NCBI GenBank assembly: GCA_007119795.1
Contig: SKOZ01000105.1
Location: 1 to 27,337, forward strand
DNA from: Planctomycetales bacterium
GTDB taxonomy: Bacteria; Planctomycetota; Planctomycetia; Pirellulales; Thermoguttaceae
Reading direction: 5' to 3'
DNA: 27,337 nucleotides
Shown here: positions 6,478-20,694 of the stretch, one piece after another
How the letters are laid out: each line of letters begins with the position of its first letter
Numbering within the stretch: position 1 is the first letter of the stretch
Program-made: the position numbers and the translations under genes
The notes under the pieces: generated by a model
Databases searched by the model: none
What the model saw: the letters and a program-made list of their open reading frames with translations, nothing else
What the model was told of the DNA's origin: nothing

Positions 6478-7161
6478 CTCGAGGATTGGGAACAAGCCGT
6501 GCCACCCGCACGGCCGCGTTGCTCTCGTTTATCGGTAAACTCTACGCAGCCTATCCAGTCTTTCCGTCGCCCGTGCTGCCGCGGCGCTGCGACCCGTTCC
6601 TGCCTTGCTCGACGGGACTCCGGCCGACCGGAAGTCGTCTTCACCTGGGCCGAAAGAGGGAGACCACGAAACCGATTCCGCGATCTAAGGGTCCTGCGGT
6701 GTTTTTTTAAGGCATTGCCAGAGTGAGGCTTGCGGCACTATTCGATGCGCGAGGCACCCAAAGAAATCTAGCTATGTAGTGCCGTATTATGCGACTCTTA
6801 AGAACGGCATGCCTCCAACGAGGCCGGGCATCCTGCCTGGACCATTCCCAACTCCGCGCCGGATTCCTTAACCGAGGTGCACGCCCGCCGCGGCGAGCTG
6901 ACTGCTACCTCCCGGCCTATCTGAGACGGAGATTCCCAGATTGTTTGAGATGGTGAGAAGGGGGGCGGACGTAGATGTCTGCGTTGGGGAGGGGGGTAGA
7001 GCCGCCGGGGACTGGCCCCACCTCCGCGGCCCAGTTCAACAGGGTTTTGTCTGGCGCGCCCCCGCACGCCACGTACCCGCTGGCCGCCATCCCGGGAGCG
7101 GAGCAGATTAAACCCCGTACGTTATACGAGAACGGAATGGCTGCATCATTACCACATCATC
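6478..7161. other. Gene-free region
   Basis: This stretch of about 680 bp has no convincing coding frame on either strand. Base composition is lower in GC around 6690-6800, including a T7 run near 6702 and a small inverted repeat (CGGCACTA at 6733-6740 with TAGTGCCG at 6777-6784). I looked for tRNA T-loop signatures and found none. It probably holds the promoter of the minus-strand lipoprotein gene (start 6440), but I cannot place a promoter with confidence. Confidence 0.5.
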
Positions 7162-7305
7162 ATGGGGGCTTTGGTCGTCGTTGGCGCCGGTATAGCTACA
7201 GGCCTCGTGGTCGTGCGCGACGACCGCGACCGGCAGCGCTGGTTCGAGCTGTTGGACGGCGTTGTCAGACGATGCGGATGGCGCGTGTTCGATGCGGAGT
7301 TGTGA
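7162..7305 (+). CDS. Possible 47-aa single-span membrane protein
   Basis: The frame reads MGALVVVGAGIATGLVVVRD, followed by a charged amphipathic stretch (DRQRWFELLDGVVRR) and the end RVFDAEL. A hydrophobic helix of about 17 residues followed by a charged soluble tail is the usual form of a small inner-membrane protein. About three quarters of its codons end in G or C. There is no good ribosome-binding site, and a longer antisense frame covers the same bases, so this is a candidate only. Confidence 0.3.
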   Translation: MGALVVVGAGIATGLVVVRDDRDRQRWFELLDGVVRRCGWRVFDAEL

Positions 7306-7375
7306 GTCCGCCGCCGCCGTCGTCACGGGGACGACGCGCGGTCGGCGGCGATCTACTTGGCCCACCGGGTCACGG

Positions 7376-7594
7376 ATGAGGCAGAGGGTGCGAGTGGGGA
7401 CTTTTTTCGGCGGCGGGAGCTTGGCGGCCATTTCCAAGACGGTGGCGCGGGCGGAGCACCGACGCGGAGAGGATCGCGCCTGGGATCGGTGTCTGGCCAG
7501 ACAACCGGAACGCCTCCTGGCAACCGCAGCTGCCCAAGAGAGTTGCTTGTCGATCCCTGCCCCCAATCACCGCATCGGCGGTGCGGCAGGCTGA
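7376..7594 (+). CDS. Doubtful 72-aa ORF
   Basis: The frame starts at ATG 7376 (an alternative GTG is at 7394) and reads a Gly/Ala stretch (GTFFGGGSLAAIS), then a basic helix-like part (KTVARAEHRRGEDRAWDRCLARQ), then a low-complexity end. It overlaps the 3' end of the convergent parvulin gene by 28 bp. I do not recognise it. It may be a real small gene following the 47-aa ORF, the remnant of a gene joined to it by frameshift, or chance. Confidence 0.18.
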   Translation: MRQRVRVGTFFGGGSLAAISKTVARAEHRRGEDRAWDRCLARQPERLLATAAAQESCLSIPAPNHRIGGAAG

Positions 7595-8649
7595 GCCGTG
7601 CCGCTGCCGGCGATCTGGATCTGGGCTTCCGGCTTGTTCTCTTCGACGATCTCCGTCCAGAGCGCGTCCGCCGCGGCGGCGGCGACCTGGCTGCGGACCT
7701 CCTCGAACGGCTTGTCGCCCGGGCGCTGTTCGGTCACTTGGAGGAGGTGGATGCCGAAGGGGGTGCGGACCGGTTCGCTGATTTCGCCGGGCTCCAGTTC
7801 GAAGAGGGCCTCGGCCACCGGCTCGACGAGCGCGCCGTAGCGCGGAAAATGCCCCAAGCGCCCCCCCTGTGCGGCAGTCTGCGCGTCGGCCGAGTACCTT
7901 TGAGCTGCCTCGGCGAAGTCGAGCTCACCGGCCGCGATGGCCGCGCGGAGCTGTTCCGCCTGCGCCATGGCCGCCTGTTCGGCCTGGGGCGGAACCGTGC
8001 CGTCAGGCGCCGTCTCGGGCTCGAGGAGGATGTGCGAGGCGAGCACCTCGGTGCCGTCGAAATGCTCCGGGTGCTCTTCAAAGGTCTCGCGGATGCGCTC
8101 TTCATCGAGGTTCTCCTCCACGTACTGCTGCCAGGCCAGCGAGCCGGCAATGCGGCGGAGGAGCGATTCCTCGGTCTGGCCCTGCATGGCGAGGAACTGC
8201 TGCAAGGCGACCCCCTCTTCGGCCAACTGCTGCCGGACGCGCTGGACCACCGCCTCGACATCCTGCCGCGGGACATCGATCTCCCGGAGCAGGTGTTGCT
8301 CGACGAGGCGGCTTTCGATCAGGTCGTCTAGCATCTCCTCCTCGATCTGCTGGCGTGTCGCCGGATCGAGGTCGAGTCCCCGCGTGCGGGCTTCCATCTG
8401 GCTGCGGACCTCGGCGAGATGAATCGGCTCGTCGTTGACGGTGGCAACCACCCGGTCCTGCTGCGGGGGGCGTGGAGGTTGCGGTTGCGGCGGCTGGGGT
8501 TGTTGAGGAGGTTGGGGTTGCGGAGGTTGCGCCTCGGTGGGCGGTGGCGGGGCGGGGGCAGGTGGCTGCCCGAATCCCTGTCCCGCGGCCGGCGCCGCCA
8601 TGAAGAGTGCCGCTACGAGGGCAATCGTCGTGCTGCTACGGTTCATCAT
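7567..8649 (-). CDS. Periplasmic parvulin-type peptidyl-prolyl isomerase (SurA/PrsA-like)
   Basis: This 360-aa exported foldase would isomerise prolyl bonds in envelope proteins. A signal peptide covers residues 1-23 (cleavage near AAG-Q). Residues 26-64 form an extreme Pro/Gln tract. A SurA-N-like helical domain follows at 65-190 (VVATVNDEPIHLAEV, then EEEMLDDLIESRLVEQHL). The parvulin rotamase domain is at 200-308, with ASHILLEP, FAEAAQRYSAD, GGRLGHFPRYG, and TPFGIHLLQV at its end. The start chosen is the first ATG of an ATG-ATG pair, nine bases after AGGAG. It lies 48 bp behind the small lipoprotein gene, probably in one transcript with it. Its SurA/PrsA-type identity is clear; its clients are unknown. 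Confidence 0.92.
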   Translation of the reverse strand: MMNRSSTTIALVAALFMAAPAAGQGFGQPPAPAPPPPTEAQPPQPQPPQQPQPPQPQPPRPPQQDRVVATVNDEPIHLAEVRSQMEARTRGLDLDPATRQQIEEEMLDDLIESRLVEQHLLREIDVPRQDVEAVVQRVRQQLAEEGVALQQFLAMQGQTEESLLRRIAGSLAWQQYVEENLDEERIRETFEEHPEHFDGTEVLASHILLEPETAPDGTVPPQAEQAAMAQAEQLRAAIAAGELDFAEAAQRYSADAQTAAQGGRLGHFPRYGALVEPVAEALFELEPGEISEPVRTPFGIHLLQVTEQRPGDKPFEEVRSQVAAAAADALWTEIVEENKPEAQIQIAGSGTAQPAAPPMR

Positions 8650-8697
8650 GAGGAAGACTCCTTGGATTTCCACGTGAGAAATGGATTTTCGCGCGTT

Positions 8698-9003
8698 CTA
8701 GCCGCCCGGCATCGGGGGGCTGGTCGAATAGGCTTCACCTGCGGGGCCCGCGGAGGGCGACGCTGGCGCCGGGGCCGCTTCGCCCGGCGTCAGGACCGTG
8801 CCCTGCGATTGCGGCGTCGGGTTGGTCGGGGGGTGGTATGAGGGTTGTGGGGCGTGGGCAGGGGCGGGTTGCGGATGATACGAGTGTCCGCCCTGGTGGT
8901 AGCTGGGCGAGGGCTGGCAGCCACTCGCCGCCAGAGCCAGCACACCGGCCCCTACCGCGGTGCTCAGGTACGACCAGTACGAACCGCGCTGTTGGCTTTG
9001 CAT
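8698..9003 (-). CDS. Small His/Pro-rich lipoprotein, 101 aa
   Basis: The protein begins with a signal peptide ending in the lipobox LAASGC (lipid on Cys29). After it comes a low-complexity stretch of His, Pro, Tyr, Ser and Gln (SYHQGGHSYHPQPAPAHAP), then a Pro/Ala/Gly/Ser-rich end. A near-perfect Shine-Dalgarno AAGGAGG (9011-9017) lies seven bases before the ATG. The repeated His residues could bind a metal, but that is speculation. It sits 120 bp behind the pseudo-receiver gene and 48 bp before the parvulin gene, all on the minus strand. I recognise no family. Confidence 0.82.
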   Translation of the reverse strand: MQSQQRGSYWSYLSTAVGAGVLALAASGCQPSPSYHQGGHSYHPQPAPAHAPQPSYHPPTNPTPQSQGTVLTPGEAAPAPASPSAGPAGEAYSTSPPMPGG

Positions 9004-9032
9004 GAGACGACCTCCTTGTACGTGTAACTAGG

Positions 9033-9081
9033 GGATGGTTCCATCCAAGAAACGCGTGAATTCGCGGCGACCCCGCCGCGA
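9033..9081. repeat. Two hairpins between pseudo-receiver and lipoprotein genes
   Basis: GGATGG (9033-9038) pairs with CCATCC (9041-9046) around two bases. TCGCGGCG (9062-9069) pairs exactly with CGCCGCGA (9074-9081) around ACCC. The second hairpin is 43 bp past the pseudo-receiver stop and is strong, but no T run follows it. It may stabilise or pause the transcript; a factor-independent terminator is not well supported. Confidence 0.4.
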
Positions 9082-9123
9082 TCGACGTTTCGCCGCGGGA
9101 TTAGCCCCCATCGCCGTTGCCGG

Positions 9124-9549
9124 CTACGAGCCCGGCTCGTTGCTCTGCTCCGCCAAAACGCCGCGGACGCGATCGACGATTGCGGCGGGCGAGCAATCGC
9201 CGGCCGTCGTCAGCGATGTGAACGGCGCGGCCCCGAAATCGTCGGCCTGGACGGTGTCGGATTTGGCGACGACCACGGGGACCGAGGGGATGTCCGCGTG
9301 CTGCCACATCATGGCCAACACCCCTTCCCCCTGCCCCCAAGGGAGATCAGGGTCGAGGAGCAGTAAGTCCGGCTGGCGGTCGCGGAGCAGGTTGATGCAC
9401 TCCACTCCGCTAGTCGCCGAAACCACGTCCAGCCCCTCCTCGCTGAGGAGGTCGCGCGCCTCCCAAAGGGAGGAACTCTCGGGTGCGGCCAAGAGGACAC
9501 TCTGTTGCGACTCTCCCCTCCCGGCTTCGGACTCGTGATTCTGGGACAT
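9124..9549 (-). CDS. Stand-alone degenerate response-regulator receiver
   Basis: This 141-aa protein consists of one CheY-like fold (residues 16-135) and no output domain. The usual phospho-acceptor strand is present, with Asp66 in LLLLDPDLPWGQGEG. The acidic pair after the first strand is lost (LLAAPESS), and the conserved Lys near the end is not visible. VPVVVAKSD (90-98) is the fourth strand. Phosphorylation is therefore uncertain, and it may work as a protein-binding pseudo-receiver. A GAAGG lies eight bases before the ATG. A strong sigma-54-type promoter (9620-9635) stands about 60-85 bp upstream, which ties it to the neighbouring sigma-54 activator. It probably heads a transcript with the lipoprotein and parvulin genes. 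Confidence 0.85.
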   Translation of the reverse strand: MSQNHESEAGRGESQQSVLLAAPESSSLWEARDLLSEEGLDVVSATSGVECINLLRDRQPDLLLLDPDLPWGQGEGVLAMMWQHADIPSVPVVVAKSDTVQADDFGAAPFTSLTTAGDCSPAAIVDRVRGVLAEQSNEPGS

Positions 9550-9619
9550 CGGTTACACCTTCTCTCACACGAGGTGAGATCGTTGTGTAGGGAAAACGGA
9601 ATGTGGAAAGGAATTATGC

Positions 9620-9635
9620 TGCAAGAACGATGCCA
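9620..9635 (-). promoter_or_regulatory. Sigma-54 promoter candidate for the pseudo-receiver gene
   Basis: Read on the minus strand this is TGGCATCGTTCTTGCA. The -24 GG (9634-9633) and the -12 GC (9622-9621) are separated by exactly ten bases, as sigma-54 requires. Both elements are close to the consensus TGGCAC-N5-TTGCA, with only one base off in the first. Transcription would start near 9610, giving a leader of about 60 bases before the ATG at 9549. The NtrC-type activator gene ends less than 700 bp away. Confidence 0.7.
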
Positions 9636-9743
9636 CAGCGACGGTGGTTCTCGGATTTCGCGATCCGCAACGGAATAAAGTGAGCGATTGGCCCCCTCAG
9701 CGCAGCGACCGTTTGCGGCCTGCCGACCTTCCAACTGCTTCGA

Positions 9744-9772
9744 CTGGTCAGAATCTGGTCAGTGTTGTTCAG
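9744..9772. promoter_or_regulatory. Helically phased direct repeats, candidate activator site
   Basis: CTGGTCAG occurs at 9744-9751 and again at 9755-9762. A related TTGTTCAG (6 of 8 matches) is at 9765-9772. The starts are 11 and 10 bp apart, about one turn of the helix. The group lies 110-150 bp upstream of the sigma-54-like promoter at 9620-9635 and overlaps the stop codon of the FHA gene. This is the normal distance for an enhancer bound by an NtrC-type activator. Confidence 0.45.
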
Positions 9773-10136
9773 AAGCTGGCTCCCAAGAGATCGCAGGCGG
9801 TGATTCGCCTGGGGATTCCGTACCGGCCTGCTTCCCTCCCGCCGGGTGGGGTCGAGGATAGACCGCCCATGGCAGCGGGCCCAGTGCCAGTCGCTCGTAA
9901 ACCACCCGGAACGCCATATCTCCCACCTTCAAATGGTCGCCGGGGAGCAAGGGGCATTCCAGCACCCGGCAGCCGTTGACTCGCACCTCCCCCGTACCGA
10001 GGTCCCGGGCGACCAGTGTGCCGTCGATGACGTCCACGCGGCAGTGGCAGCCATCGGTGCCGAGGACTGCGGGGAAACGATCGACGAATTGCTTTCCTCC
10101 GCGGTGCCGATCGACTCGGATGAAGGCAGCCCGCAT
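9759..10136 (-). CDS. FHA-domain-like protein, 125 aa
   Basis: Residues 4-80 follow the beta-sandwich pattern of a forkhead-associated domain: a first strand (AFIRVD), VDVIDGTLVARDLGTGEVRVNG (residues 34-55) with the conserved Asn-Gly, and LLPGDHLKVGDMAFRV (63-78) with the usual L-x-x-G-D-x-L-x-V-G. The Ser-x-x-His that contacts phosphothreonine is not visible, so binding of phosphopeptides is uncertain. The last 40 residues are Pro/Gly-rich and probably disordered. A GAGGAG lies seven bases before the ATG. The gene sits 96 bp behind the sigma-54 activator gene and has its own sigma-54-like promoter candidate at 10201-10215. Confidence 0.82.
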   Translation of the reverse strand: MRAAFIRVDRHRGGKQFVDRFPAVLGTDGCHCRVDVIDGTLVARDLGTGEVRVNGCRVLECPLLPGDHLKVGDMAFRVVYERLALGPLPWAVYPRPHPAGGKQAGTESPGESPPAISWEPASEQH

Positions 10137-10200
10137 GAATCTCTCCTCAAGGGTGTGGCGACGGCGACCGCTCGACCGCCCGCGACGCCGTTATCACCCC

Positions 10201-10215
10201 TGCAAATCGTGCGCC
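10201..10215 (-). promoter_or_regulatory. Sigma-54 promoter candidate for the FHA gene
   Basis: On the minus strand the site reads GGCGCACGATTTGCA. The GG (10215-10214) and GC (10203-10202) are exactly ten bases apart. The -12 element TTGCA is perfect, while the -24 element CGGCGC differs from TGGCAC at two positions. The predicted start is near 10191, about 55 bases before the FHA start codon. It is weaker than the site at 9620-9635. Confidence 0.5.
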
Positions 10216-10232
10216 GAGGCAGCCCCTCGCGA

Positions 10233-11654
10233 TCACTCGCCGTCGTCACAGAACCCGAGCTGGTCGAGCTTGGCGCGGAGCGTGGTCCGCGACATCCCCA
10301 GCCGCGCGCTGGCGCGGACCTGGTTGCCCCCTTCGTGCCGGAGGACCTCGGCGACCACCACGCGGTCGATCTCGCCGCAGATGCGCCGGTAGAGGGAGGG
10401 TTCGGCGCGCTGGATGAGCCGGCGGACGTACTGGGCCACTTGGACCCTTTCCGGCTCGCTGAGGCCGTGCGCGTCCTCGTCGCCGGGGGGCCGGCGGCAG
10501 CTATCGGGAAGGCAGTCCGCCGTCACCACCTCGCCGACGGCGTGGACGACGGCGTACTTGACGACGCTGGCAAGCTCGCGGACGTTTCCCGGCCACTCGT
10601 AGGCGGCGAGTATCTCCAGGGCTTCGGGGGCGAAGGCCGCAGCGGGTCTGCGGACCTCCTGCCGGCAATGCTGGAGGAAATGCTCGACGAGCATCGGCAG
10701 GTCGTCGAGCCGCTCGCGGAGCGGAGGGACGCCGATGGAAAAGCCGCTCAGCCGGTAGAAAAGGTCGCAGCGAAAGCTCCCCTCGGCCATCTTCGCCTCC
10801 AGGTCCTGGTTGGTGGCGGCCAGCACGCGGACGTCGGTCTGGAGCGTCTCGTTGCCTCCCACGCGTTCGAAGCGGCCGTCCTGGAGGACGCGGAGCACCT
10901 TGGACTGGGTGGCGGCCGGCATGTCCCCCAGTTCGTCGAGGAGAATGGTCCCCCCGTGGGCCTGTTCGAATTTCCCGATCCGCCGGCGGTCGGCCCCCGT
11001 GAAGGCCCCCCGCTCGTGGCCGAAGAGCTCGCTCTCCAGAAGCGACTCGGGGATCGCCGCGCAGTTGATGGCCAGGAAGGGCTTCTCGCTGCGGCGGCTG
11101 TGGTGGAAGATGGCCCGGGCGACGAGCTCCTTGCCCGTGCCGCTCTCCCCGCAGACCAGGACATTAACGTCCTCCGGAGCAACGCGGCCGATGGCCTTGT
11201 AGACCTCCTGCATCGCCGCCGAGCGTCCCACGATGCGGTCGGCCGGCTGGACGGCCTCGGCGCCGTCGAAGACGGCGGGCACGTGCCGCAGGCGGCTTAC
11301 CTCCATGGCCCGCGCCACCGCCTCGCGGAGCTGGCCAATGTCCACCGGCTTGATCAGGTACTCGAACGCTCCCCGCTTCATCGCGTCGATGGCCGTCTCC
11401 GTGGTGGCGTAGGCGGTGACGACGATGACCGGGAGTCGCGGGTCGACGCGATGGATGCGTTCGAAGGCGTCCAGTCCCGAGAGGTCGGGCAGCCGCACGT
11501 CGAGGATCATTGCGTCGGGCGACTCCGCTTCGGCAAGGGCGATCCCCTCGGTGGCCGTCTCCGCGGTGAGCACGCGCAGCCCTTCGCGCCCCAGGTGCTT
11601 GCGGAAGGTGTGCAGGACGTTGGGCTCGTCGTCGACGATCAGCAGGGTAGGCAT
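10233..11654 (-). CDS. NtrC-family sigma-54-dependent response regulator
   Basis: This 473-aa activator has three full domains. The receiver (1-120) has D8/D9, phospho-acceptor D52, T80 and K102. The AAA+ domain (about 140-375) has Walker A GESGTGKE (169-176), the sigma-54 contact loop GAFTGA (216-221), Walker B TILLDELGD (236-244) and WPGNVREL near 354. A Fis-type helix-turn-helix is near the C-terminus (GNQVRASARLGMSRTTLRAKL). It should be phosphorylated by the adjoining kinase, form a ring, hydrolyse ATP and open sigma-54 promoters. The start at 11654 overlaps the end of the kinase gene by 16 bp, implying translational coupling. The frame stays open further upstream but is Arg-rich shadow sequence there. 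Confidence 0.95.
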   Translation of the reverse strand: MPTLLIVDDEPNVLHTFRKHLGREGLRVLTAETATEGIALAEAESPDAMILDVRLPDLSGLDAFERIHRVDPRLPVIVVTAYATTETAIDAMKRGAFEYLIKPVDIGQLREAVARAMEVSRLRHVPAVFDGAEAVQPADRIVGRSAAMQEVYKAIGRVAPEDVNVLVCGESGTGKELVARAIFHHSRRSEKPFLAINCAAIPESLLESELFGHERGAFTGADRRRIGKFEQAHGGTILLDELGDMPAATQSKVLRVLQDGRFERVGGNETLQTDVRVLAATNQDLEAKMAEGSFRCDLFYRLSGFSIGVPPLRERLDDLPMLVEHFLQHCRQEVRRPAAAFAPEALEILAAYEWPGNVRELASVVKYAVVHAVGEVVTADCLPDSCRRPPGDEDAHGLSEPERVQVAQYVRRLIQRAEPSLYRRICGEIDRVVVAEVLRHEGGNQVRASARLGMSRTTLRAKLDQLGFCDDGE

Positions 11655-13192
11655 GCTACGGTCCTCGGAGCGGACGGGAAGCGGACGGTGAACACGGCGC
11701 CGCCCGCGGCACCATCGGCCGCCTCGATGCGGCCCCCATGGGCGTCGACGATCCGCGAGCAGATCGACAGCCCCAGCCCCAGGCCGGTCTCTTTGGTACT
11801 GATGAAGGGATCGAAGATCCGCGCACCGAGCGACGCGGGGAGGCCGGGGCCGTCGTCGGAGACGCGGACGGCGACGGCCTCGTCCGGACCCTCGGGAGCC
11901 TCGGCGGCCCACGCCTCGGCTTCGCGGAACACCTCGACGCGGACGCGACCGCCGTTCTCCGCGGCGTCGAGGGCGTTGAGAACCAGGTTCAGGACGACCT
12001 GGCGGAACTGGACCGGATCGACTTCGGCAGCGGCGGAGTCCGGCGCCGGCTGGAAGTCGAGGGTGATGCGGCGGCGGGCGGCCCGGGGGCTCGCCAAGTC
12101 GACCGTCTGGGCGACGAGGGCGCTGAGGTCGACGCACCTCTTCTCCGGCTGCGGGGGGCGGGCGAAATCGAGAAACGTCTGCACCGACTTCTCCAGCCTC
12201 GCCGTCTCCTCCTTGAGGATGGCCAGATCTTTGGCGTCCAGATCGCCGGGTTCCGCGGCCGACTGCACGATCACCTTCATCGACGTGAGGGGATTGCGCA
12301 ACTCGTGGGCCAGACCGGCGGCGAGCTGACCGACGGCCGCCAACTGCTCGGCGCGGAGCGTCTCCTGCTCACTCCGCTGCAGGCGATCGACGATCGTGGT
12401 CACCCGCTGCGAGACGCGGGTGAGGACATTCTCCAGGTCGCGGAACTCGGGTTCCGCGGAGACGGCCACCGGTCCGACGACTTCGTTCAGCTTCCCCGCG
12501 ACGTCGCGGATCGGGAAGCTCAGTTGAACGATGGTGCGGCTCACGTAGCGGGCGATCCCATAGCCGGCGAGCAACCCCGCAACGCCGCCGCAGGTCCCCA
12601 GCAGGAGCAGCCCCAGCATCAGCCGGTTGGCCGTCTCTTCGTTGCGTCGGTTGCTCCGCAGCGCCTCTTGCTCGTTGAGGTGGATGTACTGGCGGGCAGG
12701 GGCGAGGATTTCGCTCGGAAGAACCTCGTCAGCGAGCGCGGCGATCCGCTGCGCCGCCTGAGGAGAGTCGATCTCCTCGGCGATGGAGGGCAGCTCCGAT
12801 TCGGCGCGGCGGAAGCCGTTGCGAATTCGCCCCAAGAGGGCCACTTCGTGGTCCGTGTTGGCCCGCTGCTCCGCTTCGCTGAGCCAGCGAATGCCCTCGG
12901 GCAGCAGTTCGGCATAGGCCGTCAGGTGGCGGGGGTTTTCCGTGCTCAAGTAACGCTTCAGCCGGTAACGCATCTCGCGGACCACCACGTCTACCCCCTC
13001 TGCGGAACGGATACTGGAGACGTTTTCGGCGAGGATATCGGTCCCCCGCTGATGGAGACGGTGTACCCGCCACGCCCCGTACACGCCCATTGCCAGCAGA
13101 AGCACGCCCACCGCGGCGATCGGGATCGTCATCCGCCAGAGAAGTCGCCCGCTGATACGGGAGCCCCCCTTTGCTGTCCAGGATTTGAACAT
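11639..13192 (-). CDS. NtrB-type membrane sensor histidine kinase
   Basis: This 517-aa sensor spans the inner membrane with TM1 (about 21-41) and TM2 (about 191-214). Between them is a helical periplasmic domain of about 150 residues with no Cys or PAS motif that I recognise. A HAMP-like linker is followed by the dimerisation helix with His296 (HELRNPLTSMK). The ATPase domain shows the N box (LVLNALDAAENGG, N406), DDGPGLP (446-452), an F box (FDPFISTKETGLGLGLSI) and a Gly-rich end. It should phosphorylate the NtrC-type regulator encoded directly downstream, whose start it overlaps. A GGAGG lies 14 bases before the ATG, a rather long spacing. The signal it senses is unknown; an envelope signal is inferred from the neighbours. 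Confidence 0.94.
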   Translation of the reverse strand: MFKSWTAKGGSRISGRLLWRMTIPIAAVGVLLLAMGVYGAWRVHRLHQRGTDILAENVSSIRSAEGVDVVVREMRYRLKRYLSTENPRHLTAYAELLPEGIRWLSEAEQRANTDHEVALLGRIRNGFRRAESELPSIAEEIDSPQAAQRIAALADEVLPSEILAPARQYIHLNEQEALRSNRRNEETANRLMLGLLLLGTCGGVAGLLAGYGIARYVSRTIVQLSFPIRDVAGKLNEVVGPVAVSAEPEFRDLENVLTRVSQRVTTIVDRLQRSEQETLRAEQLAAVGQLAAGLAHELRNPLTSMKVIVQSAAEPGDLDAKDLAILKEETARLEKSVQTFLDFARPPQPEKRCVDLSALVAQTVDLASPRAARRRITLDFQPAPDSAAAEVDPVQFRQVVLNLVLNALDAAENGGRVRVEVFREAEAWAAEAPEGPDEAVAVRVSDDGPGLPASLGARIFDPFISTKETGLGLGLSICSRIVDAHGGRIEAADGAAGGAVFTVRFPSAPRTVACLPC

Positions 13193-13719
13193 GACTGTTC
13201 AGAGTTCCTCCAGGGCGTTGTGGCGGCCACCCCCCGACAGACAACCCAGTCGCCGCAGACCACCTAAAAACACCGATTCATCGACACGGCCGGACCCGTG
13301 GGAGCGACGCAGCAACCCTTATTCTCCAGCGTATCCCATCGCCCGGAATGAGAAAACCGCGATATTGGCCCACCGAGACCGGAAGATCGTGGGGGAAGTG
13401 GGACGTACCGGGTGCTCTCGCGGCATGCGCAAGCAATCGGTGCTGTGGTGGAGGAGGACGTCATGGGGTAAGAGGTTTCTCTCGGGGTGGAGGGGGTCGT
13501 CCGTCCTCCCGTGCTCCTTTGCGGGAGGGATCGGGCGGTCCGTGGAGAAGAACAAACCCACGAAACCGGCTGGCCTGAGAGTAAAAAAACGGCTTCCGGC
13601 GCGCGCCTTGCATGAGAGAACCGCCGGTCCTCCCGCCTGCGGCGGCTGTCTTCCTCCCCGCCGGCCGCCGCGGCGGGAACGACCCCCAGTCACGCACTAA
13701 GAAACGCAGGAGCCAAGTC
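13193..13719. other. Divergent regulatory gap (527 bp)
   Basis: This gap separates the kinase gene (minus) from the acidic lipoprotein gene (plus). No frame in it looks coding. It holds a hairpin with a 7-bp stem (CCTCCCG at 13505-13511 with CGGGAGG at 13522-13528), a sigma-54-like promoter for the plus gene (13598-13613), and two further hairpins in the predicted leader (CCGCC 13633-13637 with GGCGG 13641-13645; CCCGCCG 13657-13663 with CGGCGGG 13671-13677). A single CTGTTCAG (from about 13196), close to the repeat found at 9744, lies next to the kinase start codon. I could not identify the promoter of the kinase operon. Confidence 0.5.
13598..13613 (+). promoter_or_regulatory. Sigma-54 promoter candidate for the acidic lipoprotein gene
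   Basis: The site reads GGCGCGCGCCTTGCAT. GG (13598-13599) and GC (13610-13611) are exactly ten bases apart and the -12 element is TTGCAT. The -24 element CGGCGC matches the one in the FHA candidate but departs from TGGCAC. The start would be near 13623, leaving a leader of about 97 bases that contains two GC-rich hairpins. The first ten bases form a palindrome, so a repressor or operator site is an alternative. Confidence 0.45.
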
Positions 13720-14361
13720 ATGCCAATCGCCACAACGGGCGTTCGCCGGGAGCGGCTTCACACCGCACGTTCATGGATGGGGCGGGTAGGGGCGATTCTT
13801 GCGGCCGCCATGATCGGAATCCTGGCCGGCTGCAACGGCGCCCCGCCCGCCGACCCGGTGCCCGAGCCGGGGCCCCCACCGCTCGATACGCCGGAGGCGC
13901 CGGAGGACCCGGACCCCATCGGCCTCCCGGAAGAGACCGGGGATCCGCTGGGCGGCCCGTTCGACCAGCAGCAGTTCGGCGAGCCGCAACTCGGCGAGCA
14001 GCAATTCGGCGAGCCGTGGGGCGACCCGGGCGACCCGGTCGAGTTGCCGCCTGTTGAGGAACCCGCCTGGCCCGACGAACCGGCCGACGATGATTTCGGC
14101 ATCGACTTCGGCGCCGAGGACACCCAGCCGTTGCCCGAAGTGGACGGCCCGGCCGGCGGGTTCGACTTCGATCCCGAGCCGCTGCCGCCTGCCGCAGACG
14201 ACAGCGGCGAGGAGGCTCCCGACGACGGCCTCGAGCCCGGCGCCTTCGACTGGCCCCTGGAAGAAGCGGAAGACTACGGCCAGGACCAGGAGTCGTCTTT
14301 CTCCGAGTTCGAGGGATCGAGTTGGTCGCTTCCCTCAGGGAGCGATTCGTTGCTCGAGTAG
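13720..14361 (+). CDS. Acidic proline-rich lipoprotein, 213 aa
   Basis: The protein has a basic n-region, a hydrophobic stretch (VGAILAAAMIGIL) and the lipobox ILAGC, with lipidation on Cys38. The mature part is almost entirely Asp, Glu, Pro, Gly and Gln, with a short repeat of the form Q-Q-F-G-E-P (residues about 87-112) and later FDFDPEP and DDGLEPGAFD segments. It is probably disordered, very acidic and surface or periplasm exposed. GGAG eight bases before the ATG supports the start at 13720 over one at 13777. I recognise no family. It is transcribed away from the kinase/regulator genes and has a sigma-54-like promoter candidate, so it may be a target of that pair. Confidence 0.82.
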   Translation: MPIATTGVRRERLHTARSWMGRVGAILAAAMIGILAGCNGAPPADPVPEPGPPPLDTPEAPEDPDPIGLPEETGDPLGGPFDQQQFGEPQLGEQQFGEPWGDPGDPVELPPVEEPAWPDEPADDDFGIDFGAEDTQPLPEVDGPAGGFDFDPEPLPPAADDSGEEAPDDGLEPGAFDWPLEEAEDYGQDQESSFSEFEGSSWSLPSGSDSLLE

Positions 14362-14390
14362 CCCGCCGCGCGGCACAGCACTTCCGCAGC

Positions 14391-14404
14391 GCCCCGTACG
14401 GGGC
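14391..14404. terminator. Perfect palindrome between convergent genes
   Basis: GCCCCGTACGGGGC is a perfect 14-bp palindrome in the 64-bp gap between the ends of the acidic lipoprotein gene (plus) and the reductase gene (minus). The position fits a shared bidirectional terminator. No T run follows on either strand, so termination would have to depend on a factor or on hairpin strength alone. Confidence 0.4.
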
Positions 14405-14425
14405 GGCCTGGTAAGGGTATTGGGG

Positions 14426-15277
14426 TCAGACGGCGCGCACGTGCTCGCCCAGGAACCGGGCGAGGGCCTCTTGCCAGGTGGGCATGGGGGGGGCGCCGTG
14501 GAGACGATGGTATTTCGTGGTGTCGACGACGCGCGAGATCCCCCACGCAGGCGGTGGTTCTTCACCACGTTGAGGCTCGATCGTCACGTCGCGGTCCAGT
14601 AGCCGGAAGAGCTCGCAGCCGAACTCGTACCAGCTCGACGCACCCCGGTTCACTACGTGATAGATCCCATAGGCCCCGGTGCCGATGAGGAAGCGCAGGG
14701 CGCGGGCCAGATCCAGCGTGCAGGTCCACGAGCTGCGGCGGTCGGCCGGAAGCCGCAGGGGCTGGCCTTCCTCGGCCTGCTGCAGCATGTCGTACAGGAA
14801 GCTGCGGCGGGCACGTGGACCGGCGGGCCCGTAAAGGCCGCTGGAACGGACAATGAAATGCTTGTCCCAGCGAGCCACGGTCTGCTCCGCCTCGTACTTG
14901 CTCTGGGCATAGGTGCCGCGGGGAGAGGGCGGATCGCTCTCGCGGTAGCCGGATTCGTTCTCGGGGTCGCCGAAGACAGCGGTGCTGCTGGCCAGCAGCA
15001 GCGGGCAGTCGAGTTCGACGCACGCCTCGACGACGTACCCGGTCCCCTGGACGTTAATTGCCCGGCATAGCTTCGGCTGCCGCTCGGCATTGGCCGCGTC
15101 CGTATAGGCCGCGGTATGAATCACCGCCCGCGGACGCAGGGCCACCAAGGTCTGCAAAACGGCGTCGCGCTCGATCATATCCAACACCGGCAGGTCGACC
15201 CCTACCACCTCGTCGCCGAGTTGGCGCGTCAGGGCCGTGCCGAGCTGCCCTTGGTAACCGGTAACCACGATCTTCAT
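14426..15277 (-). CDS. RmlD-type NAD(P)-dependent sugar reductase/epimerase
   Basis: This 283-aa member of the extended short-chain dehydrogenase family is closest in feel to RmlD (dTDP-4-dehydrorhamnose reductase). A Rossmann start KIVVTGYQGQLG (G7, G10, G13) binds the dinucleotide. LLLASSTAVFG carries the catalytic Ser/Thr region, and Y123-x-x-x-K127 (YAQSK) is the active-site pair. HTAAYTDAANAE is typical of the RmlD group. The C-terminal part (VVNRGASSWYEFG, then TWQEAL near the end) is the substrate domain. GGAGGGG eight bases before the ATG at 15277 fixes the start. It would act on a nucleotide-linked sugar for surface polysaccharide, but no other rhamnose genes are in the window, so the exact substrate is open. 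Confidence 0.88.
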   Translation of the reverse strand: MKIVVTGYQGQLGTALTRQLGDEVVGVDLPVLDMIERDAVLQTLVALRPRAVIHTAAYTDAANAERQPKLCRAINVQGTGYVVEACVELDCPLLLASSTAVFGDPENESGYRESDPPSPRGTYAQSKYEAEQTVARWDKHFIVRSSGLYGPAGPRARRSFLYDMLQQAEEGQPLRLPADRRSSWTCTLDLARALRFLIGTGAYGIYHVVNRGASSWYEFGCELFRLLDRDVTIEPQRGEEPPPAWGISRVVDTTKYHRLHGAPPMPTWQEALARFLGEHVRAV

Positions 15278-15367
15278 GACACGCCCCTCCATGGTTGTGG
15301 TCACCGCGAGGTGACCAGGACTTGCGGATGGATTTACGACTGCCTCCAGGGCGGCCTGCTGAACGCT

Positions 15368-15916
15368 TCAAGCCCAGGGCAGGCCCTCCCACACACGCTC
15401 CTGCCACTCTCGCTCTCGCCTTGGGGCCCGGACCACGTGGCCGACAGCTGCCTCGACCCAGGGATCGATGCGCCGCGGCGAGTCGATCCACCCCACGGCC
15501 CCCGCCTCCCGGAAAGCCCCCTCGAGCACGGCCAACTCCTCGCAGCCCGCCGCCGCCACCGCCGCGTGCGGGTATTCGCGCTCGGCGGCCAGGAGGCGAT
15601 CGAAGAGCGCCTCGGCATTCGCCGCCGTGACCTCCACAATCGCAAAACTGGCCGGGAAATGCCCGAGCCACGCACCCAAGCCGGCCAGTCCGGCCGCCGC
15701 CCGCAACGGCACCCGGCCCCGGAGGACTCGGCGCAGGGAACCTCCCCAACGCCCGCTGCTCTCGCAGAGGATCAGGCAGGCAGTCGCGGATCGATCGGAT
15801 GGCCGGGACCGGTTGGAATCGGTGTCAAGCACTAGCAAAATCGTAGAGATTGGCGCCGCGGCCGACAAGCGTCCCCGCGGCCGAAGGGTATCGGTGACAG
15901 CCACATTGACGGTCAC
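15368..15916 (-). CDS. Pseudo-receiver-like protein, 182 aa
   Basis: I do not recognise a named family. From about residue 46 the chain alternates strands and helices like a CheY receiver: ACLILCESSG, a helix (WGGSLRRVL), a strand (SFAIVEVT) where the phospho-Asp would be replaced by Glu, HAAVAAAG, then AVGWIDSPRR where the usual Lys-Pro would stand. It would thus be a non-phosphorylated variant. The GTG start at 15916 overlaps the upstream TGA by four bases (GTGA), which suggests coupling. A second GTG four codons on has a better-spaced GAGGAG. The first 45 residues are poorly conserved-looking, so the start is uncertain. It lies between the ceramidase-like and reductase genes. Confidence 0.65.
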   Translation of the reverse strand: MTVNVAVTDTLRPRGRLSAAAPISTILLVLDTDSNRSRPSDRSATACLILCESSGRWGGSLRRVLRGRVPLRAAAGLAGLGAWLGHFPASFAIVEVTAANAEALFDRLLAAEREYPHAAVAAAGCEELAVLEGAFREAGAVGWIDSPRRIDPWVEAAVGHVVRAPRREREWQERVWEGLPWA

Positions 15917-17316: not shown

Positions 17317-17565
17317 CGTGGGGTACCTCATCGTCACTCGTATGGCTCGGGGTGCCCGGCGAGGAGGAGTCGTGGGATTGGGAGGCCGGTGCCGGCGGAG
17401 CCTCTTCTCGCGCGGGAGCGCCCCCCATTGTAGACTGGTTGTGCGGCAAAAGGGACCAGGGGAAGCGCCCCGGCGAGCGGACGATGGACATTCCGCCGGC
17501 GGACGGCTACGATGACATCAACGATTGCCGTTCTGCGGAGGGGGCACCGTCATCGCAGCGCCTCG

Positions 17566-20500
17566 ATGGACATCGACGAACTTCGACGCTACCTCGACGA
17601 CCCCACCGCCGCGGCCGAGTGGCTGGGCCGCTGGAAGCTCGCCGATCCGCGGCGCGGGCGCGCCAGCCTGGTGCGGATGGCCACCGCCGGGGTCACGCTC
17701 GATCTCTTGGCCGCGATCGTCGATCAACTCGGCCGCCGCCTGCCGTTCTGTCCCGATCCGGACATGGCGCTGAACAACCTCGACCGCTTCGTGGCTGCGG
17801 CGCGCAACCCCCTGTCCGTGGGCACCCTCTTCGAGCGCGACCCGGAGGCACTCTCCACGCTGGTGCAGATATTCTCCACCAGCCAGTACCTGAGCGACCT
17901 CTTGGTTCAGGACCCGGAAAGCCTCGACCTCCTGCGGCTCACCGAGGGTCAGCCCGTAGCCCGCCAGGCCCTCGTCGACGAAATCGTCGCCGAGGTCGAC
18001 GCCCTCCAGCATGATGCCACGGTGCTCGCCGCCCTCCGCCGCTTCAAGCGCCGCGAGACGCTCCGCATCTCCTACGGCGACATCATTCGGCGCCAGGCCC
18101 TGGAGACGGTCACGCGGCAGATCTCCTTCCTCGCCGACGCCATTGTGGAAGCCGCCCTGCGGTCCGCCTGGCGGACGGTGGCCCAGCGGACGGGCAACCC
18201 CTCCGGCCCCGCCGGCGAAGCGGCCTCGATGGTCGTCCTCGGCCTGGGGAAGCTCGGCGGCGAAGAGCTCAACTACTCGAGCGACATCGACCTGGTCCTT
18301 CTCTACAGCGGCGAAGGGCAGACCGATGGGCGCAAGGCGATCGGCAACGCCGAGTTCTTTCAACTCGTGGCCCGCGAGATGGTGCGGCTGCTCACGGAGA
18401 CCTCCTACCTGGGAGCGGCCTACCGCGTCGACCTGCGGCTCCGCCCCGAGGGTCAGCGGGGGGCGATGGTCGTCGGCGTCGACTCGGCCCTGGCCTATTA
18501 CGAGGCCCGGGGGCGGACCTGGGAGCGGCAGGCCTTCATCAAGGCCCGACCCGTGGCCGGCGACCTCGTTCTGGGGCGGCATTTGCTCGAGCGGATGGCC
18601 CCCTGGATCTACCGGCGCTACTTGACGCGGGCCGACATCAGCGGCATCCAGGCGCTCAAGCGCCGCATCGAGCGGCGCAACCGCCGCGAAGGGGGCGCAG
18701 CCCGCGACGTGAAGACCGGCCACGGCGGCATCCGCGACGTCGAGTTCGCCATCCAGTTCCTCCAGCTCCTCAACGGCGCGGACCTCCCTCAACTTCGCAC
18801 GGGAAACACCCTGGAGGCGATCGGCCAACTGGAACGGGTCGGTTGTCTGAGCAGCCAAGAGCGGTCGTTGCTCACGGAAAACTACGTCTTCCTCCGCCGC
18901 ATCGAGCACCACCTGCAGATCATGTTCGATTTGCAGACGCACGTGATGCCCGAGGGGGCCGTGGAGCTCCGCAAGCTGGCCCTGCGGATGGGCTATGTCG
19001 AGAGGGCGGGCCGGCCGGCACTGGCGGCCTTCGAGGGCGACTACCGGCAACGCACGGCGATGAACCGGCGGATCCTCGACCACCTCCTCCACGACGCCTT
19101 CCGGGACGGCGCGGAGGTGGAGGCCGAGGTCGACCTGATCCTCGACCCCGACCCGCCGGAGGAACGGGTCTTTGAAGTCCTGGGCAAGTACGGCTTCGCC
19201 GACGTCCGGCAGGCCTACCGCAACCTGATGGCCCTTTCCGAAGAGAAGATCCGCTTTCTCTCCACGCGCCGCTGCCGGCACTTCCTGGCAGCCATCGCGC
19301 CGCAGCTCCTCGGCGCCATCGCGGCCACTCCAGATCCCGATGCGACTCTGGTGAACCTCGACCAGGTGAGCGCCTCGCTAGGCGGCAAGGGCGTGCTCTG
19401 GGAGCTCTTCAGCTCCAATCCCCCGTCGCTGCAGCTCTATGTCCGGCTCTGCGCGTACAGCCCTTTCCTTTGCAGCATCCTCACCAGCAATCCGGGGATG
19501 ATCGACGGGCTCATGGACAGCCTGGTCCTGGACAAGCTCCCCACGCCTGAGGCGCTGCGGAACACGCTGGCAGATCTGGTCCGCGCCGCAGAGGATTTCA
19601 CCCCCATCCTCCACAGCTTCAAGAACGACCAGCAACTCCGCGTGGGTGTCCGCGACATTCTCGGCAAGGAGGACGTGCAGGCCACCACCGCCGCCCTTTC
19701 CGCAATCGCCGAGACGTGCCTTGCAGAGATCGCCCACCACGAACACCGCCGCCTTGCGGCGAAGTTCGGCACGCCCCGCGTCGGCGAGGGACTCCGCCGC
19801 GGCGAGCCCTGCGAGATGGCGATCCTGGCCATGGGGAAGCTGGGCGGCCGGGAGATGAATTACCACAGCGACCTGGACATCGTCTTCCTCTACGAGGTCG
19901 AGGGGCACACGGCGGCGACCGGCCGCGGCGAGCGCACCACGAACCAGCACTTCTTCAGCGAGCTGGGCCAGCGGATCATCCAAAGCACCAGCCGGCTGGG
20001 GCCTTCCGGACGGCTGTACGAGGTCGACGCCCGCCTGCGGCCCACCGGCCGGAGCGGCTCGCTGGCCGTCTCGCTGGGCGAGTTCTCTCGGTATTTCGCC
20101 GAGGGAGACGGCCAGCTCTGGGAGCGGCAGGCGCTTTGCAAGAGCCGGGTGGTCTTCGGCTCGGACGGCGTCGCGGAGGCGGCGGCCACGGCGGTGGCGC
20201 GAGCGGCCTTCTCCCACCGCTGGCGGCGCAACGACGCCGAAGCCATCTGCCACATGCGGCACCGCCTCGAGCAGGCTGCCCCCCCCGGGGACGTGAAGCG
20301 GGGGGAGGGGGGCATCGTGGACATCGAGTTCGTCGTGCAGATGCTCCAGCTCAAGCACGGCCGCAGTCAGCCCGCAGTCCGCAACCCCAACACCCTGGCG
20401 GCTCTCGACGCGCTCCACGAAGCCGGATGCCTGACCGCGGCCGATTGGCGGCACTTCACCGAGAGCTATCGCTTCCTGCGGACGCTCGAGGGACGCCTGC

Positions 20501-20694
20501 GGCTGATCAGCACCACCGCCCGCGACCGCCTGCCCGAGGCCCCCACAGAACTGGCCAGACTGGCCCACCTGATGCATCTGGCCGATGGCTCCCAACTCAT
20601 CGAGGCCTGCGCCCGCCACACCGCCGAGAACCGCCGCCGCTTCGCGCGCCTCTTCGATCAGGAAGGGGACGCGAGACAGTCTAGCCGAGCCTAG
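17566..20694 (+). CDS. glnE: Bifunctional glutamine synthetase adenylyltransferase/deadenylase
   Basis: This 1042-aa enzyme adds AMP to and removes AMP from glutamine synthetase according to nitrogen status, signalled by PII. Both nucleotidyltransferase halves are present, each with a G-K-L-G-G and D-x-D signature: GLGKLGGEELNYSSDIDL (about residues 226-243, adenylyl-removing half) and AMGKLGGREMNYHSDLDI (about 755-772, adenylylating half). Each is followed by a GlnD-UR-like helical domain (RDVEFAIQFLQLL and IVDIEFVVQMLQLKHG). R-L-R-P-E/T-G motifs follow both. It is slightly longer than the E. coli protein (about 946 aa). The ATG at 17566 begins MDIDELRRYL; the ATG at 17512 would add 18 residues of non-typical composition. 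Neither has a strong ribosome-binding site. Confidence 0.95.
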   Translation: MDIDELRRYLDDPTAAAEWLGRWKLADPRRGRASLVRMATAGVTLDLLAAIVDQLGRRLPFCPDPDMALNNLDRFVAAARNPLSVGTLFERDPEALSTLVQIFSTSQYLSDLLVQDPESLDLLRLTEGQPVARQALVDEIVAEVDALQHDATVLAALRRFKRRETLRISYGDIIRRQALETVTRQISFLADAIVEAALRSAWRTVAQRTGNPSGPAGEAASMVVLGLGKLGGEELNYSSDIDLVLLYSGEGQTDGRKAIGNAEFFQLVAREMVRLLTETSYLGAAYRVDLRLRPEGQRGAMVVGVDSALAYYEARGRTWERQAFIKARPVAGDLVLGRHLLERMAPWIYRRYLTRADISGIQALKRRIERRNRREGGAARDVKTGHGGIRDVEFAIQFLQLLNGADLPQLRTGNTLEAIGQLERVGCLSSQERSLLTENYVFLRRIEHHLQIMFDLQTHVMPEGAVELRKLALRMGYVERAGRPALAAFEGDYRQRTAMNRRILDHLLHDAFRDGAEVEAEVDLILDPDPPEERVFEVLGKYGFADVRQAYRNLMALSEEKIRFLSTRRCRHFLAAIAPQLLGAIAATPDPDATLVNLDQVSASLGGKGVLWELFSSNPPSLQLYVRLCAYSPFLCSILTSNPGMIDGLMDSLVLDKLPTPEALRNTLADLVRAAEDFTPILHSFKNDQQLRVGVRDILGKEDVQATTAALSAIAETCLAEIAHHEHRRLAAKFGTPRVGEGLRRGEPCEMAILAMGKLGGREMNYHSDLDIVFLYEVEGHTAATGRGERTTNQHFFSELGQRIIQSTSRLGPSGRLYEVDARLRPTGRSGSLAVSLGEFSRYFAEGDGQLWERQALCKSRVVFGSDGVAEAAATAVARAAFSHRWRRNDAEAICHMRHRLEQAAPPGDVKRGEGGIVDIEFVVQMLQLKHGRSQPAVRNPNTLAALDALHEAGCLTAADWRHFTESYRFLRTLEGRLRLISTTARDRLPEAPTELARLAHLMHLADGSQLIEACARHTAENRRRFARLFDQEGDARQSSRA

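Follow-up and report, generated by a model that had tools for sequence, protein, structure and literature searches.

The gene block considered here lies on a 27,337-nt stretch of planctomycete DNA (contig SKOZ01000105.1; "the window" below means this whole stretch) and raises the question of whether a membrane histidine kinase and its NtrC-type activator govern, through sigma-54, the genes for exported proteins that flank them. The initial annotation had proposed control over a whole envelope gene set, with an FHA-like protein and a degenerate receiver as modulators. Our analysis, which is computational throughout, leads us to put at about 75% the probability that the block forms a planctomycete envelope-stress regulon, local and dependent on sigma-54, with the same kind of wiring as ZraPSR. 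No envelope-stress two-component system of Planctomycetes was found described in the accessible portions of the open-access literature searched, and the window offers a concrete candidate for one: a single pair with named targets and with predicted promoters that recur in position.

The pair and the sites around it

The kinase (11639..13192, minus strand) carries HisKA and HATPase_c domains and an extracytoplasmic N-terminal region. The end of its gene is overlapped by that of the activator (10233..11654, minus strand), in which a receiver, a Sigma54_activat (AAA+) domain and an HTH_8 domain (Fis-type helix-turn-helix) were found and the GAFTGA motif was read intact directly in the translation. 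On the same strand follow genes for a degenerate FHA-like protein of 125 amino acids with FHA homologues (9759..10136), a stand-alone degenerate receiver of the WGGGDGV family matching PF00072 (9124..9549), a His/Pro-rich lipoprotein of 101 amino acids (8698..9003) and a secreted SurA_N and parvulin peptidyl-prolyl isomerase (PPIase; 7567..8673); an acidic, Pro-rich lipoprotein is encoded divergently from the kinase (13720..14361, plus strand). The lipoboxes of both lipoproteins and the signal peptide of the SurA/parvulin protein were read from the translations; the latter protein matched Rotamase and SurA_N_3, and its SurA_N domain, PPIC domain and signal peptide are all present. All genes named in the initial annotation were thereby recovered in place, on domain matches, lipoboxes and the GAFTGA reading. 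Its "NtrB-type" label for the kinase is loose, the best scores being to the AtoS and ZraS models.

Candidate sigma-54 promoters were scored with a model that allows only GG-N10-GC and counts consensus positions out of 12. The three that had been proposed were all retrieved: CGGCGCACGATTTGCA (10201..10216, minus strand, 9/12) before the FHA gene, TGGCATCGTTCTTGCA (9620..9635, minus strand, 10/12) before the receiver gene and CGGCGCGCGCCTTGCA (13597..13612, plus strand, 10/12) before the divergent lipoprotein gene, at 64, 70 and 107 nt, respectively, from the start codons. In the gaps of the block (976 nt, both strands) these three sites at 9 or more compare with 0.41 expected from 500 Markov-2 shuffles; at lower cut-offs the counts were four versus 1.7 (8 or more) and five versus 4.7 (7 or more).

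Sites and targets in related genomes

Kinase homologues were numerous (of 7995 candidates scored, 3497 reached E ≤ 1e-20), and at E ≤ 1e-95 a kinase was found in 47 of the 297 genomes of the class. Wide stretches around 40 kinases were taken, 38 from these 47 genomes and two from others, and the activator adjoins the kinase in 35 of them. Across 45 loci, window included, sites scoring 10 or more numbered 35 up to 700 nt from the pair (60.3 kb in all; 0.58/kb) and 60 farther out (573.8 kb; 0.105/kb). This contrast mixes gaps with coding DNA, and the comparison was therefore repeated against the regions upstream of other long open reading frames (ORFs) in the same loci. The set for it comprised 44 loci (L201 left out), 43 of them usable upstream of the kinase and 39 downstream of the activator (42 and 38 without the window), the others being dropped because flank was missing or no activator lay nearby. 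Genome G294 contributed two loci. With the window left out, 20 of 42 loci had a site of 10 or more within 500 nt upstream of the kinase, compared with 10 among the 166 control regions (P = 1.3e-9), and 9 of 38 had one downstream of the activator (P = 0.0025 against the control regions), these P values being guides for loci that are related and not independent. The upstream regions held 23 such sites, compared with 1.8 in shuffles. With the window counted in, the upstream sites divide into 13 oriented to the kinase, as for autoregulation, and 11 oriented to the divergent gene; the 10 downstream sites, among them one within the FHA gene of the window, all share the orientation of the pair. Seven of nine further window-like loci also had a site of 10 or more within 700 nt upstream, and own-strand sites upstream of the kinase are present in many relatives, including genomes G001 and G002.

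Of the genomes compared, the four whose kinases are closest to that of the window have, as the divergent gene, one for an acidic, Pro-rich lipoprotein (three) or for a SurA-like protein (one). G001 and G002, with kinases 55–56% identical to that of the window, carry the lipoprotein behind a 9/12 site in a block conserved between both; G538 (53%) has a 12/12 site followed by the lipoprotein and then by a SurA-like gene; and in G497 (53%) a 12/12 site stands directly before a divergent SurA-like gene on a 3.8-kb contig. The mature lipoproteins of G001, G002 and G538 contain 21–23% Asp plus Glu, 0% Lys plus Arg and 22–32% Pro, and that of the window 28, 0 and 20%, respectively. Position and composition mark the proteins at L126, L127 and L303 as counterparts of the latter. 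An alignment gave 36% identity over 105 residues with composition correction off; for such low-complexity proteins, the proposed kinship draws on position, lipobox and composition more than on alignment. The SurA-like proteins of G538 and G497 share 39–43% identity with the SurA/parvulin protein of the window and have no PPIase domain. Two kinds of neighbour present in the window, an acidic lipoprotein and a SurA-type protein, are thus found again after sigma-54-like sites of this pair, arranged differently than in the window. In the SurA-like genes at L303:3363-4181 and L294:223-1017, the SurA_N part is kept and the entire parvulin domain is missing.

At the same positions in other lineages lie genes for Usp, SulP, HlyD, trehalose-6-phosphate synthase, a bicarbonate transporter (Sbt_1), CsrA, DoxX and others, so that across lineages the promoter wiring is kept and the targets change. 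A trehalose-6-phosphate synthase-like gene diverges from window-like pairs at L149, L151, L152, L153, L156 and L159, behind sites of 9–10/12 (called by Pfam for L152 and read from sequence for the others), and an Sbt_1-type transporter was found in L154 and, by similar sequence, in L143 and L163.

A tree of the pairs, which omits seven loci where the kinase was incomplete or no activator lay nearby and in which the rooting was not resolved, groups the window with G001 and G002; G538 and G497 were not in it. The glnE protein of the window (17512-20694) has its best match at 70% identity among the genomes compared. Few of the 38 genomes closest by glnE (about 62–70%) carry a window-like kinase, and G001 and G002, which have the closest kinases, are not closest by glnE (G002 61%), which together suggest that the pair has been lost or transferred. 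The sigma-54 gene rpoN was found in 13 of 15 relatives.

Known systems and rival explanations

The arrangement recalls ZraPSR (HydHG) of E. coli and Salmonella, in which, according to the part available of PMC4987338, ZraR controls the divergent sigma-54 promoters of zraSR and of zraP, the latter encoding a periplasmic chaperone; the accessible part of PMC7657598 lists zraP, zraR and zraS as targets and discusses envelope stress. Both systems pair a GAFTGA-bearing sigma-54 activator with a membrane kinase, and both have a divergent promoter leading to an exported-protein gene, predicted from sequence in the window and likewise in its relatives. With sites of the same pair kept in relatives and exported envelope proteins as neighbours, the locus looks like a planctomycete counterpart of ZraPSR, and the statement in the initial annotation that no system of this make-up is described went too far in view of the similar wiring in that source. 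The two differ in several respects. Whereas zraSR is under a sigma-54 promoter, no site reaching 7 lies upstream of the window kinase on its own strand, and the sequence gives no sign of its autoregulation; G001 and G002 do have a site there. The predicted targets are an acidic lipoprotein and a SurA/parvulin protein rather than the zinc-binding periplasmic chaperone ZraP (no search was aimed at ZraP), and the degenerate FHA-like and receiver genes are additional. Membership of ZraPSR is not claimed, as the curated cut-offs for ZraR, ZraS and NtrC are unreached: the activator scored 367 bits against 760 for ZraR (NF007689) and the kinase 162 against 479 for ZraS (NF007688), and the activator likewise stays under the NR(I) cut-offs of the NtrBC nitrogen system (TIGR01818, 494.9 versus 558.6; NF008176, 401 versus 620). 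Several kinase homologues are named HydH by JGI.

For the families concerned, phosphotransfer, sigma-54 activation by GAFTGA activators and the chaperone action of SurA are established. In the proposed mechanism, the kinase would sense an envelope signal through its extracytoplasmic region and phosphorylate the activator, as is established for the family, and the activator would then open promoters of RNA polymerase–sigma-54 beside its own genes. The three candidate promoters would drive the divergent acidic lipoprotein gene, the FHA gene, and a probable operon of the receiver, His-rich lipoprotein and SurA/parvulin genes, to which their shared strand and their spacing (120 and 24 nt) point. 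To judge from the SurA_N and PPIase domains, the products may bind or refold damaged exported proteins. The receiver and FHA-like protein, made within the response, would most likely serve as adaptors or feedback elements rather than as phosphorylation switches, a suggestion we make with considerable reserve.

Studholme and Dixon reportedly predicted a sigma-54 regulon for Pirellula sp. strain 1 in 2004. More recently, predicted sigma-54 promoters were found enriched before CsrA in Planctomycetia and, in Planctomycetota, before NtrC-type regulators likened to ZraR; enrichment also extends to universal stress proteins and chaperones, and CheY-like receivers are named across classes including Planctomycetia (PMC12316311, accessible portions). 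These predictions fit the present reading and lower its novelty. The window locus, the lipoprotein–SurA pair and the CsrA–receiver fusion treated below are not described in those portions, and the terms "FHA" and "peptidyl-prolyl" are absent from the main text of that article.

The change of neighbours between lineages suggests another explanation, namely that the pair serves planctomycetes as a general regulator of stress and has neighbours that vary by chance, with only the divergent lipoprotein as a target and the FHA, receiver, His-rich lipoprotein and SurA/parvulin genes independent, served by other promoters or by read-through. We consider this unlikely. It is favored by the varied genes behind the sites, by the lack of linkage of FHA and receiver genes to window-like pairs elsewhere, and by the SurA/parvulin relatives of other lineages, which have no site of 8 or more upstream at 10 loci (10 of 25 genomes with matches). 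Those distant loci had suggested that SurA/parvulin is not a sigma-54 target, an idea weakened by G538 and G497, in which perfect sites precede a SurA-like gene, after the lipoprotein in the first and in its place in the second. Further points against independence are the FHA and receiver genes' own 9/12 and 10/12 sites in short gaps, the enrichment of such sites before the receiver family (see below), and the scan of 6500-15500 for sigma-70-type promoter-like sites, which found none against 0.5 expected, other promoter types not being covered. That the sites are artefacts produced by the base composition of a GC-rich genome (68% in the window) and the block is not under sigma-54 at all appears highly improbable. 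The GG-N10-GC pattern is indeed common, with 688 occurrences in the window, of which five score 10 and two of those five lie far from the block, and at 11 or more the enrichment in relatives is not significant (3/42 upstream and 2/38 downstream, versus 5/166 control regions). Composition would leave unexplained the enrichment at 10 or more over both shuffles and matched upstream regions in other genomes, the perfect sites at the divergent position in G538 and G497, and an intact GAFTGA activator within the same block.

The interpretation as an envelope-stress regulon itself has results weighing against it, among them the missing site before the window kinase, the loss of significance at 11 or more, the relatedness of the loci behind the P values, and the 10 SurA/parvulin loci. 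The unrelated genes at the same positions in other lineages mean that "envelope" fits this clade and not the whole family. No shared activator-binding dyads rose above shuffles. The contigs of G001 and G002 end inside the divergent gene and that of G497 soon after it, so genes downstream are not visible; the 4.3-Mb drafts of G001 and G002 yielded no rpoN, evidence for which comes from relatives only. A link of the receiver to window-like pairs elsewhere was looked for and rejected, with 0 of 50 loci among the best 60 matches (five of them repeats of another locus's contig and one a locus of the B pairs described below) and 0 of nine further loci; the FHA-like protein has few relatives, only three homologues being found in the protein search, at 99, 73 and 64% identity. 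What is supported of the original proposal is a sigma-54 pair with local targets, with sites far above control and a lipoprotein or SurA-like gene behind the divergent site in the four closest genomes compared. The FHA, receiver and His-rich lipoprotein genes were not found beside a window-like pair in relatives; the gene order is not conserved, and for these three this is an outcome that the initial annotation had itself named as refuting.

The receiver family, the FHA-like protein and other features

The window receiver matches PF00072 at 32.5 bits (cut-off 30.2) and has a receiver fold in its predicted model, with receivers as Foldseek matches and low confidence at residues 106-116; its family motif reads PWGQGEGV. 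The Asp at the acceptor position is kept, and the protein fails the canonical receiver set because the acidic pair and the conserved Lys are absent, for which reason it is unlikely to act as a normal phosphorylation switch. It resembles aspartate-less and pseudo-receivers (PMC4395418, PMC12632262) in having the fold without catalytic residues, and differs from them in retaining the acceptor Asp while lacking the acidic pair and Lys. Neither article has a term match for CsrA, and the sole planctomycete mention is a legend abbreviation in PMC4395418.

A set made up of G001, G002 and 38 of the genomes nearest by glnE gave receiver matches at E ≤ 1e-8 in six of its 40 members, namely five CsrA–receiver fusions and one longer receiver. 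Of the 397 genomes in the class search, 91 gave matches at E ≤ 1e-16, part of them outside the WGGGDGV family. A WGG-type motif was present in 45 of 48 receiver loci, window included, and L262, L279 and L283, which do not have it, were dropped from the promoter count. A site of 9 or more lay 20–220 nt before the start of 11 of the 45 family genes compared with 16 of 274 control ORFs (P = 3e-4); without the window the count is 10 of 44, and scores reach 12/12. A full-length related kinase lies near the receiver in 9 of the 44 family loci, with an NtrC-type activator too in eight of the nine, where chance would give less than 1% by a rough estimate. The kinases near WGG receivers (B pairs) fall outside the window-like group in the tree. 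That B pairs always carry the receiver could be rejected, as 11 additional B loci all lacked it. Receiver matches at E ≤ 1e-10 were present in every one of 16 genomes that have window-like pairs, and none of the 12 loci examined had the WGG motif.

Of the best 120 of 710 protein homologues of the receiver, all have WGxG[DE]G, 36 begin with a CsrA-like start, and the acceptor residue is Glu in 103 and Asp in 15. Among the 43 genome-search members aligned (of the near-identical L251-L253, L252 and L253 were left out), Asp was the commonest acceptor (20), followed by Glu (14) and others (9). Fusions to CsrA lie at L195:9796-10431, L196:7535-8197, L197:5311-5916, L199:5423-6055 and L200:1450-2103, called by Pfam for L195 and L197 and read from sequence for the others; a trehalose-6-phosphate synthase (GT20) gene lies about 30 nt downstream of the L200 fusion. 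No description of such a fusion was found in the open-access literature searched, as far as its texts were available, and the accessible part of PMC8523701, with many mentions of CsrA, concerns separate PpoR and CsrA proteins and no fusion. Planctomycetes may have a class of sigma-54-induced WGGGDGV receivers, partly fused to CsrA and many without a normal phosphorylation site (often Glu), that ties sigma-54 pairs to post-transcriptional or protein-binding control, the window receiver being a CsrA-less member recruited as an adaptor or feedback element of the envelope-stress pair. We offer this as a tentative and rather doubtful idea, the more so since the acceptor seen most often among the 43 genome members is Asp and not Glu. 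A family with CsrA fusions in part of its members and frequent substitution of the phosphorylation residue is a natural case for how pseudo-receivers work.

The FHA-like protein gave no Pfam match (PF00498), nor did its relatives P0122 and P0123, found on contigs of 1149 and 1367 bases, and its model was poor (predicted local distance difference test score of 40). It aligns with two PF00498-matching proteins (L208 and L209) at 46% over 48 and 38% over 104 residues; GR and NGT/HGT stretches present in these homologues are absent from the window protein, which is shorter there. It would thus be FHA-derived, judging by these alignments, and has probably lost the usual phosphothreonine binding. 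The protein and its three homologues share the invariant end PASEQH. A further 10/12 sigma-54-like site is found at 9961 (minus strand) within its coding sequence, over the conserved ECPLLPGD, and the end of the gene holds a near-direct repeat, TGGTCAGAATCTGG / TGTTCAGAAGCTGG (9745-9779), about 110–145 nt upstream of the receiver promoter, which is possibly an activator site.

Both window lipoproteins stay below every Pfam cut-off, and the His/Pro-rich one has no convincing family and 0 matches across 289 loci. Rfam and tRNA scans of the window gave no match. A plasmid DNA search returned 423 records with a match, none above 80% of the query, the five listed covering 20–23%, and eight viral contigs with weak kinase relatives were set aside. 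By the names of their homologues, the window genes resemble those of Planctomycetes. Codon-position G+C of the block genes is close to that of neighbouring clear genes, most weakly for the small lipoprotein, and the start codon of the SurA/parvulin gene is likely the ATG at 8646.

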